DNA of 64,000 bases from Methylobacterium sp. GTDB lineage: Bacteria > Pseudomonadota > Alphaproteobacteria > Rhizobiales > Beijerinckiaceae. How positions within the stretch are numbered: position 1 is the stretch's first letter; every line of letters begins with the position of its first letter. The DNA lies in NCBI RefSeq assembly GCF_019745455.1, contig NZ_JAIETD010000013.1, forward strand, positions 62,001 through 126,000, read 5' to 3'. Positions 4,762-55,026 of this stretch are shown here, one piece after another. A program made the translations under genes and the position numbers. The notes beneath the pieces were generated by a model. The model had not been told where the DNA came from. It made no database searches and worked only from the letters and a program-made list of their open reading frames with translations.

Positions 4762-7700
4762 ATGAACGCACAGCCACCCGCCACGACCTCCGTGCAGCAG
4801 GCCAAGGCCGGAAGCGTCGCCCTTCCGGCGACCCTGGCGCCACGGGCCGAGGGGCCGCGGATCTACAACCTGTTCCCGCTCCTCGTCGGCCGCGTCTCGG
4901 CCTGGACTGCAGAGCTGCCCCGCATCGCCGCCCTCGGGTTCGACTGGATCTACCTCAACCCCTTCCACCAGACCGGCGGCTCGCGCAGCCTCTACGCCGT
5001 CTCGGATATCGAGCGCCTCGACGAGCGCTTCCGCGATCATGACGGCACCTCGGACGACGAGCAGATCCGCCGCTTCTGCGCCGCCGCCGAGGCGCATGGC
5101 CTCTCGGTGATGACCGACCTCGTCGTCAACCACACCGCCAAGGACGGCCCGCTGGCGCGGGAGCGGCCGGACCTCTTCGTCCTCGACGAACACGGCCAGC
5201 CCGAGAGCCCCTATGCCGTCGATCCCGACGACCCGTCGATCCGTACGGTCTGGGGCGATCTCGCCGAGCTCAACTACCATTCCGAGGCCGCCGCTCAGGA
5301 ACTCACGAAGATCTGGGCAGCCTATATCAACCGCCTGCAGGACCTCGGCGTGCGCGGCTTTCGCTGCGATGCCGCCTACAAGGTGCCGCCCGAGGTCTGG
5401 CGCGTGCTGATCCAGTCGGCGAAAGCGCTGGAGCCGGATTGCCTCTTCGCCGCCGAGACGCTGGGCTGCACCTTCGAGGAGGCCCAGGCGACTGCCGGAG
5501 CCGGCTTCGATTACCTGTTCAATTCCTTCGCCTGGTGGGACCTGAAGGCACCCTGGGCCCTGGAGCAGTACGAGCGGCTTCGCATCATCGCGCCCTCGAT
5601 CGCCTTTCCCGAGAACCACGACATGCCGCGGCTCGCGGCGGAGGCCGAGGGGGATGCCGGCGAGATCGCCCGCCACCTGAAGGCCCGCTACGCACTCGCT
5701 GCGTTCTTCTCAGCCGGCGTGCTGATGCCGATCGGCTACGAATGGGGCTATTCCCGCGCCCTGCACGTCGTCGAGACGACGCCCGAAAGCCGCGAATCCG
5801 AGACCGGTATCGACATCTCCGCCTTCGTTGCAGCGGTCAACGCTCTGCGCGCCGAGCTTCCGGCCGCCAATGTCGAGGGCGCCCAGGCACGCATCTCGGC
5901 GCCGGATGCCGACGTCGTGGCGTTGATCCGCTTCGATACCGGCCACGCGGCCTCGGCCCGCCACGCCGTGCTCGTGCTCCACAACCCGACGGCGGCGCCG
6001 ATCCCCGTCGATGCTACCGCGATCCTTGCCCGTACCGGCGGCATGATCGGCACCTTCATCGACCGCACGCCGGACGCCTCGCCGATCGCCTTCCGCGTCG
6101 GCGATGCCGTCACCCTGCAGCCCGGCGAGGTCCGCATCCTCGCCGCCGACCAGCCGAAGGTGACGCGCTGGCCGCGGCCCACCAACCCGGATGGCCGCGG
6201 CCGCGTCGTCATCGAGGCGGTCTCGCCGGAGATCGACGGCGGCCGTTCGGCGGTGAAACGCGTGGTCGGCGAGCAGGTCGAGGTGACGGCCGATATCTTC
6301 AGCGACGGCCATGACATCATCGACGCCGAGATCCTATCGCGTGCTGCTGGCGAGACCGAGTGGCGCCGCGACCCGATGGTCTTCGTCGACAATGATCGCT
6401 GGCGCGGGCATTTCCCGCTGGAGCGCAACGCCCGCCACGTCTTCACCATCGAGGCCTGGCGCGATGCCTTCTCGTCCTGGGTCCGCGACACCCTGAAGAA
6501 GCGCGATGCCGGCGTTGATGTCCGTCTCGAGACGATCGAGGGCGTCGCCCTCGTGAAGGCCGCCGCCGGCCTTGCCACGGGCCCCGACGCTACCGCCCTG
6601 GCCGACCTCGTCGCTGCACTCGAAGCCGACGAGGCCGGATCGGCGTCGCAGCTCGACCGCATCCTCGCGCCGACGGCTGCCTCCCTGATCCGCCGCAATG
6701 CCGAGCGGGTGAACCTGTCGCGCTATCCGGTCGAGATCCCGGTCATCGCCGACCGCCTCGCGGCCCGGTTCTCGGCCTGGTACGAGATCTTCCCGCGCTC
6801 GCAATCGGGCGATCCGAACCGCCACGGCACCTTCGACGACGTCATCCGCCGCCTGCCCGAGATCCGCGAGCTCGGCTTCGACGTGCTCTATTTCACGCCG
6901 ATCCACCCGATCGGGAAGACCAATCGGAAGGGCAAGAACAACACCCTCAAGGCCCAGCCCGGCGATGTCGGCTCGGTCTACGCCGTCGGCTCCGAGGAGG
7001 GCGGCCACGAGGCGGTGCATCCCGAACTCGGCACCCTCGACGACTTCTCGCGCCTGGTGGCGGCGAGCCATGCCTACGGCATGGAGATCGCCCTCGATTT
7101 CGCGATCCAGTGCTCGCCGGACCACCCCTGGATCAAGAACCACCCGGAATGGTTCGAATGGCGGCCCGACGGGACGTTGAGGTTCGCCGAGAACCCGCCC
7201 AAGAAATACGAGGACATCTCCAACGTCCATTTCTACGGCGGCGCGCTGCCCTCGCTCTGGATCGAGCTGCGCGACATCGTGATGGGATGGGCGGAGCGCG
7301 GGGTGCGCATCTTCCGCGTCGACAACCCGCACACCAAGCCGATCCCGTTCTGGGAATGGATGATCGCCGCGGTCAACGAGCGCTATCCCGACGTCATCTT
7401 CCTCGCCGAGGCTTTCACCAGGCCGAAGATGATGAAGAAGCTCGCCAAGGCCGGCTACCAGCAGAGCTACACCTACTTCACTTGGCGCAACACGAAGCAG
7501 GAGCTGATCGAGTACTCGACCGAACTCGCGGGAGAGATGGGGGAGTATTACCGGCCGAATTTCTTCGCCAACACGCCGGATATCAATCCAGTCTATCTTC
7601 AGACGAGCGGTCGCGCCGGCTTCATCGTCCGCGCGACGCTGGCGGCGACGCTCTCATCGGTCTACGGCATCTATAACGGCTTCGAACTCTGCGAGGCCGA

Positions 7701-52970: not shown

Positions 52971-53837
52971 ATGAAACCGATTCGCAAGGCCGTCCTTCCT
53001 GTCGCGGGCCTCGGCACCCGCTTTCTCCCGGCGACGAAGGCGGTCCCGAAGGAGATGTTGACGGTCGTTGACCGGCCCGTGGTGCAGCACGTCGTCGATG
53101 AGGCCCGCGAGGCTGGCATCGAGCATTTCATCTTCGTCACCGGCCGGGGCAAAGCGGTCATCGAGGATCATTTCGATATCGCGTTCGAACTCGACCACAT
53201 GCTTCGGGAGCGCGGCAAGGAAGCCGCCTACGAGGAACTCAAGCGCGACCTGCCGAAGGCCGGCCAGACGAGCTTCACCCGCCAGCAGGCGCCGCTCGGT
53301 CTCGGCCATGCCGTCTGGTGCGCCCGCGAGATCGTCGGCGACGAGCCCTTCGCGGTGCTCCTGCCGGACATGCTCAGCCGCGGCTGCATGGGCCAGATGC
53401 TGGCCGCCTACGAGCGCCATGGCGGCAACGTCATCGCCGTCGAAGAGGTCAAGCCCGAGGAGACGCACCAGTACGGCATTGTCGGCGTCGGTCAGACCTT
53501 CGGGCAGACCTTCGAGATCGACGGAATGGTCGAAAAGCCGAAGCAAGGAACGGCGCCCTCCAACTTCATCATCTCGGGGCGCTACATTCTTCAACCGGAG
53601 ATCTTCTCGATCCTCGAACGCGGCGAGAAGGGAGCGGGCGGTGAGATTCAGCTCACCGACGCGATGATCGCGCTCGCCAAGCAGCAGGCCTTCTTCGGGA
53701 TGCGCTATGAGGGCCGGACATACGATACCGGTTCGAAGCTCGGCTTTCTCACAGCGAACCTCGCCTATGCCCTGGAGCGCAAGGAATTGGCCGAACCGCT
53801 CAAGGCCGAGATCGAACGCCTGCTCCGTGGTTCGTGA
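52971..53837 (+). CDS. galU: UTP-glucose-1-phosphate uridylyltransferase
   Basis: [41 protein letters not shown] and [13 protein letters not shown] 52971. Confidence 0.96.
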
Positions 53838-53954
53838 GAGCGCGTAGGCGGATTGCTTAGCTGGTGCGTGCAGCGCGGCGCGGGCATGCATGCAACGCAG
53901 CCATTCAGACGAGAACGTCCTTGCTTTTTGTGCGTCGCACTTTAATTATTGCGT

Positions 53955-54043
53955 TGCGGGATCGCGATGGCGTCGCGGTCCGGCAGCCCTTCTTGGGCGT
54001 TTCCTCCCTAGACTTCGGGCCGCTCTTCGGAGCGGCCTTTTTT
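53955..54043 (+). ncRNA. Candidate trans-acting sRNA (three hairpins, single-stranded UUUCCUCCCU, intrinsic terminator)
   Basis: TTGCTT-N16-TAATTA promoter-like elements (53921-53948). Hairpins GGATCGCG/CGCGGTCC (53959-53981), GCCC-TTCTT-GGGC (53986-53998) and the terminator GGCCGCTC-TTCG-GAGCGGCC-TTTTTT. No convincing ORF. Confidence 0.5.
54018..54043 (+). terminator. Rho-independent terminator with UUCG tetraloop
   Basis: GGCCGCTC-TTCG-GAGCGGCC followed by TTTTTTC. Confidence 0.9.
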
Positions 54044-54120
54044 CTTGGGCCATGCATTTCTTCTGGTGTCAGGCATCGTCGGAGCTGACAGCTCAAGTCG
54101 TCCGGCAAGACTGGTTGAGG

Positions 54121-55026
54121 CTATTCGGCGGCGATGCGCCGGGGCGTGAGATCGACGATCTCCGCTGCGACCGCAACGACCATCTCTCGCAGGTGCCATA
54201 TCAGACCGGAGAATCCGTCCGTCACGGCGAGCGACGTCTCGTTCATGTAGAGGCCGCGGTTGATCTCGATCTGCAAGGCATGGCGCCCGATCCCCGGCTC
54301 ACCGTAATGCTCGGTGATGAAGCCGCCGGCATAAGGCTTGTTGCGCAGGACCTTGAAGCCGCGGGACCTGAGGTGCTGTTCGACGAGACCGGTCAGGAGT
54401 GGCGCGCAGCTCGTCCCGAAGCGGTCGCCCAGGATGATGTCGGCCTTCGTTCCCTCGTCGCGTCCGAGGCTCGATGACGGCATCGAGTGGCAGTCGATCA
54501 GGATCGCATAGCCGAACTGCCTGGCCGTCCGCTGGATCAGGGCGCGTAGGGTGCGGTGATAGGGCTTGTAGAGTGCCTCGATACGCTCGACAGCGTCTTC
54601 GACCGGCAGGCGTCCGCGGTAAATCTCCTGCCCGTCCGCCACGACGCGCGGTACGGTGCCAAGTCCGCCCGCGACCCGCATTGAGCGGGTATTGGCGAAG
54701 GGCGGCAGGCGCCCGTCGAACATCCGTGGGTCGAGTTCGTAAGGTTCGCGATTGAGATCGAGATAGGCGCGAGGGAAATGCGCCCGCATCAAAGGTGCCC
54801 CGAGATCGACCACCGGGGCGAACAGCCGGTCCACATGTGCATCCTCCGATCGCCGGAGCGCAAGGGCGTCGAGGCGTGAGGATGCGAGGAACGAGCGAGG
54901 ATAGACCGAACCGGAATGCGGCGTGTTGAAGACGAACGGAAGAGAATGGACCTCCGGCTCGTCGACCACGAAGGGCGGATCGAAGGCGGCGGAGGCGGAA
55001 ATCTGGTTCGTGAACGGTTCTGTCAT
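54121..55026 (-). CDS. N-formylglutamate amidohydrolase
   Basis: FNTPHSGSVYPRSFL, YAILIDCHSMPS, GGFITEHYGEPGIGRHALQIEINRGLYMNE. ATG 55026. Confidence 0.92.
   Translation of the reverse strand: MTEPFTNQISASAAFDPPFVVDEPEVHSLPFVFNTPHSGSVYPRSFLASSRLDALALRRSEDAHVDRLFAPVVDLGAPLMRAHFPRAYLDLNREPYELDPRMFDGRLPPFANTRSMRVAGGLGTVPRVVADGQEIYRGRLPVEDAVERIEALYKPYHRTLRALIQRTARQFGYAILIDCHSMPSSSLGRDEGTKADIILGDRFGTSCAPLLTGLVEQHLRSRGFKVLRNKPYAGGFITEHYGEPGIGRHALQIEINRGLYMNETSLAVTDGFSGLIWHLREMVVAVAAEIVDLTPRRIAAE

Follow-up and report, generated by a model that had tools for sequence, protein, structure and literature searches.

What kind of element is the cluster of hairpins that lies between two convergent genes of Methylobacterium sp., and what controls it? 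In the 64,000-nucleotide stretch of contig NZ_JAIETD010000013.1 that was analysed as a whole (the window), the cluster is located downstream of a galU gene of the UTP-glucose-1-phosphate uridylyltransferase type (52974..53837, + strand; PF00483, 2.7e-24). On its other side sits the convergent gene for an N-formylglutamate amidohydrolase (FGase; 54121..55026, − strand; PF05013 at 54124-55026, 5.2e-78), whose closest named relatives come from Methylobacterium (up to 87% identity). An earlier sequence-only reading had taken the cluster for a small RNA (sRNA) but did not recognize that it belongs to a named and partly characterized family, MmgR/SisA, and overlooked the operators of the PhaR type described below. 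A covariance-model scan against all Rfam families revealed a match to RF00519 (suhB/MmgR, alphaR8 family) at 53979-54053 on the + strand, with a score of 74.6 bits against a cut-off of 41. The match spans the whole model (model positions 1-77) and is the sole sRNA match above cut-off in the window. The gene order galU, sRNA, FGase is that of the canonical alphaR8 locus, and most species have their alphaR8 RNA adjoining an FGase gene (PMC12559287). On account of the score and the canonical locus, the sRNA between galU and FGase is, with virtual certainty, a member of the alphaR8/MmgR family. This kind of sRNA is already known, and the family is linked to bacterial carbon-storage granules. The other identities considered, SorY (RF02651; 28.3 bits against a cut-off of 111), anti-hemB (RF02837; 23.7 bits against 49.5), the Betaproteobacteria toxic sRNA and ryfA, all scored below the Rfam cut-off.

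The predicted transcript of about 88-91 nt (53953..54043, + strand) is bounded by the promoter and terminator positions, its 5' end being deduced from the position of the −10 element. The elements listed in the sequence-only reading, namely the promoter-like hexamers, the three hairpins, the unpaired UUUCCUCCCU and the terminator with its UUCG loop and six Us, match the sequence base for base, and the arms of its first hairpin are found inside 53959-53968 and 53972-53981. Hairpin 1, the 5' stem-loop (53956..53984, + strand), has 13 pair positions and a GGC loop, and lies outside the Rfam model. Hairpin 2 (GCCC-TTCTT-GGGC; 53986..53998, + strand), with arms at 53986-53989 and 53995-53998, is invariant in 30 orthologues and provides the short helix that precedes the seed in alphaR8 RNAs. 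The unpaired and nearly invariant seed GTTTCCTCCCTAGACTTC (53999..54016, + strand) contains the anti-Shine-Dalgarno 10-mer of the family, TTTCCTCCCT (54000-54009, + strand), which does not vary across the aligned orthologues; the corresponding part of SisA is a proven pairing site (PMC12559287). After the seed comes the terminator stem that is likewise typical of alphaR8, part of a Rho-independent terminator (54017..54043, + strand) within the RF00519 match. It comprises a stem at 54017-54038 with a TTCG loop and a T6 tract at 54038-54043, and was detected independently by a consensus scan. The 123-nt strand folds at −53.6 kcal/mol, compared to a mean of −41.2 kcal/mol for dinucleotide shuffles (z −3.4). 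In the lowest-energy fold of the window sequence hairpin 2 is opened and hairpin 1 is longer; a slightly longer stretch folds into all three hairpins. The open reading frames that overlap the region look spurious, as had been claimed, because the length differences among orthologues there are not multiples of three, and they were rejected as coding.

The promoter (53921..53948, + strand) consists of a −35 element TTGCTT (53921-53926) and a −10 element TAATTA (53943-53948) separated by a 16-nt spacer, and harbors two predicted operators of the PhaR type. In S. meliloti the PhaR (AniA) motif has the core YGCRNYGCR, and EMSA showed PhaR bound to a site of this type at mmgR (PMC12542648). Both the conserved O1 TGCGTCGCA (53931..53939), between the −35 and −10 elements, and O2 TGCGTTGCG (53950..53958), over the transcription start, match this core and stand 19 bp apart; by sequence only, they match twice over the PhaR (AniA) site known from the S. 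meliloti mmgR promoter. At least two YGCRNYGCR motifs are present in 71 of 76 distinct related upstream regions. The motif occurs 48 times in the window, below the 88 expected from shuffles, and five of the occurrences fall within 53869-53958. Besides O1 and O2, this 90-bp segment holds three sites between galU and the promoter, at 53869, 53874 and 53891. PhaR and Hfq are encoded in the genome, and its three phasin genes are each preceded by YGCRNYGCR sites, a pattern to be expected if this motif serves PhaR here.

We consider it likely that PhaR controls this sRNA gene, and the two conserved PhaR-type operators predicted in its promoter are a new detail. The dyads might instead serve another regulator, or simply result from the base composition of promoter and stem, with no PhaR control at this locus. 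Such a reading would fit an assignment made from motif matches, and in S. meliloti the same promoter also responds to NtrC (PMC7143759). Moreover, the hairpin 1 stem starts with the last three bases of O2, so that the conservation of O2 has two possible causes and part of it may be that of the RNA. However, O1 is not part of the RNA, the core is identical to the PhaR motif already published (PMC12542648), the genome has both a PhaR gene and the same motif ahead of its phasin genes, and in M. extorquens phasin gene expression went up in a phaR mutant (PMC6520949), all of which makes control by PhaR the better reading and its absence unlikely.

Comparison of orthologous loci from Methylobacterium, Microvirga, Chelatococcus, Xanthobacter and others revealed that hairpin 1 keeps its fold while its sequence changes, and it folds in 20/20 orthologues examined. 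Tandem alphaR8 pairs beside FGase were seen at one Microvirga locus, two Xanthobacter loci and one uncultured Rhizobiales locus. In the 30 sequences that aligned cleanly, 95.7% of the hairpin 1 cells are paired and 35 cells are changed on both sides. The covariation score is 0.219, whereas slid controls did not exceed 0.057 and shuffles averaged 0.103. The number of hairpin 1 pairs with any double change in these 30 sequences (4) was not above that in shuffles (3.3). RNAalifold on a wider set (n = 36) recovered the 5' stem, with double changes in 7/15 predicted pairs, whereas hairpin 2 is uninformative on covariation because it is invariant. Compensatory changes in relatives, to which the earlier reading had looked as a check, are hence present in hairpin 1, which the Rfam model omits. 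These results support hairpin 1 as a conserved RNA stem kept by compensatory changes, new relative to that model. The sRNA might also start further down, leaving hairpin 1 as a feature of the DNA only or outside the RNA, given that the Rfam model begins at 53979 and that MmgR of S. meliloti is 77 nt long (PMC7143759). A later start is nevertheless quite improbable, as hairpin 1 covaries as an RNA stem, folds in every orthologue examined and is preceded by the sole conserved promoter.

The positions given for the promoter in the earlier reading are exact, and its hexamers and spacing are conserved in relatives, where the −35 TTGC and a spacing of 16-17 nt are kept; the hexamers are too weak for the promoter to reach the threshold of a sigma-70 consensus scan. 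It lies about 80 nt past the galU stop codon, and the promoter-plus-sRNA cassette recurs at other loci of the genus and on plasmids. Altogether, the RF00519 match, the conserved promoter of its own and the compensatory changes in hairpin 1 bear out the independent sRNA of about 85-90 nt that had been suggested, and we predict with little doubt an independent three-hairpin transcript of about 90 nt. The other origin offered at the time, an RNA cut out of the galU mRNA whose conserved stem-loop is mainly the galU terminator, would suit an RNA that follows galU closely and on its strand, no terminator having been found in the interval, yet it is disfavored and hardly credible because conserved −35 and −10 elements and operators precede the RNA at this distance from galU, whole cassettes exist elsewhere in the genus and on plasmids, and the seed and 5' hairpin are conserved besides the terminator.

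The independent alphaR8 gene has numerous siblings. Seven RF00519 matches were found in this genome, six of them above the cut-off, and one search gave 4-16 matches per genome in 36 other genomes of the genus, whereas 24 genomes from other families in the order had 0-4. Three matches in this genome are weak or divergent (42.7, 42.5 and 29.3 bits) and have no PhaR-type site near the core; they may be decayed or differently controlled copies. Of the 43 mostly paralogous copies that we examined, three belong to this genome and 40 to others of the genus, with the syntenic copy represented at least once among the 40. At least one YGCRNYGCR is present in 38/43 copies, nearly all in two narrow position ranges, a count that is inflated because the copies share descent; the control rates are 11/201 for 70-mers from the same loci and 20.7% for resampled promoter sequences. 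The 5' stem is possible in 43/43 copies by a simple pair count. In addition, alphaR8 copies with varied neighborhoods occur in 38 PLSDB plasmid records, and the PhaR-type site and 5' hairpin are kept in 5/5 plasmid copies looked at. Many Methylobacterium and Microvirga plasmids, some of 33-66 kb, carry alphaR8 copies in unrelated neighborhoods.

Copies are also found in phages of alphaproteobacteria. The Bradyrhizobium phage record OP596613.1 contains a full RF00519 match of 62.8 bits (positions 6010-6090), and an exact 21-base core, in two variants, is present in 117 IMG/VR stretches; 11/12 phage loci scanned score above the Rfam cut-off. The 114 readable IMG/VR loci comprise 106 distinct 80-base versions, only 7 with a PhaR-type site. 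The phage copies combine an exact seed with divergent stems, mostly without a PhaR-type site. Their neighbors include terminases, portals and a tail protein, and a terminase is often located 0.9-1.4 kb downstream. A terminase or portal lies within 6 kb downstream on the same strand in 36/118 loci (the 117 stretches and the phage record), a share that is rough because the loci are unequal in length and some contigs may be proviruses with host flanks. A CATAGGGTGTGCGGTAG stretch upstream of the sRNA is common to several phage loci, including the phage record (positions 5983-5999) and four IMG/VR stretches, and may represent a phage promoter or belong to the 5' stem. Given the expansion of alphaR8 in Methylobacterium to 4-16 chromosomal and plasmid copies per genome, most of which keep operators, we see an even chance that one granule-sensing repressor switches the sibling set together, in contrast to the siblings of Caulobacter with their separate control, and that the phage copies, with the same seed and mostly operator-less, could impose the same mRNA repression on the host.

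Among the known systems closest to it, the sRNA can be set beside MmgR of S. meliloti, with which it shares the family by covariance model, the anti-Shine-Dalgarno 10-mer and a PhaR (AniA) dyad between the −35 and −10 elements (PMC12542648). The two differ in that MmgR is 77 nt long (PMC7143759) with one PhaR site listed (PMC12542648), whereas the present RNA is predicted at about 90 nt with two sites, in a genome with six copies above cut-off. SisA-D of Caulobacter crescentus belong to the same family and share the seed; they too are several siblings per genome, and SisA has an FGase neighbor as here (PMC12559287). However, the SisA-D promoters have no common motif (PMC12559287), whereas most Methylobacterium copies share PhaR-type sites. 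A further difference from SisA-D concerns the antisense sponge CrfA; our search for a CrfA-like sponge, as a long antisense of the seed, found none beyond the copies themselves and one chance-level match, and a shorter or degenerate sponge could escape such a search. RF00519 was first described as the suhB element of Agrobacterium (Corbino et al. 2005), likewise an sRNA that is present several times per genome and has a promoter, a short helix at its 5' end and a terminator; the passage describing it mentions neither a longer 5' hairpin nor operators. AbcR1/2 (alphar15) and NfeR1 (alphar14) are similar alphaproteobacterial sRNAs with three stem-loops and exposed CU-rich anti-Shine-Dalgarno motifs (PMC7143759), but they are different families, and only suhB scores above the Rfam cut-off here.

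We propose that this locus encodes a canonical MmgR/alphaR8 trans-acting sRNA, an independent gene of about 90 nt that is controlled by PhaR and acts through its anti-Shine-Dalgarno seed, which as a whole is highly likely. The wiring is predicted from relatives: control by PhaR is proven only in Sinorhizobium, where PhaR represses mmgR (PMC12542648) and phasin protein is reduced by MmgR; for target pairing the proof comes only from Caulobacter, where SisA, with Hfq, represses mRNAs by pairing of its anti-Shine-Dalgarno 10-mer (PMC12559287). In the proposed circuit, PhaR bound to the operators would block transcription of the sRNA while PHB is scarce; once PHB granules form, they would titrate PhaR and so allow the sRNA to be made. 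The CCUCC seed of the sRNA would then pair, with the help of Hfq, with the Shine-Dalgarno regions of phasin, transport or metabolic mRNAs and lower their translation, keeping the growth of granules in check. Since the phasin genes have PhaR-type sites in front of them as well, this wiring would amount to an incoherent feed-forward loop, in which PhaR blocks phasin directly and also blocks the RNA that blocks phasin. Anti-Shine-Dalgarno repression of mRNAs in general is probable, and phasin mRNA as a direct target here is a tentative proposal that we hold somewhat doubtful. When seed pairing was ranked, one of the three phasins fell in the top 2.6% of a background of 235 starts, taken from about 460 kb in which ORFs had been called in a simple way, and in orthologues of this top-ranked phasin the conserved part of the pairing is mostly the Shine-Dalgarno itself, so direct pairing is suggestive only.

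Beyond the known family, three additions are provisionally novel: the 5' hairpin that covaries, the pair of operators and the sharing of operators among siblings; no report of these for Methylobacterium turned up among the openly accessible papers searched. An anonymous intergenic cluster of hairpins can now be named as a gene, together with a circuit that can be tested, in a genus that is studied for methanol-based PHB metabolism. RNA-seq of an M. extorquens phaR mutant has been published with its sRNAs left unexamined (PMC6520949), so the PhaR prediction may be checkable there, provided that the library retained short transcripts. The sharing of operators also poses the question of why many sibling copies are placed under one regulator.
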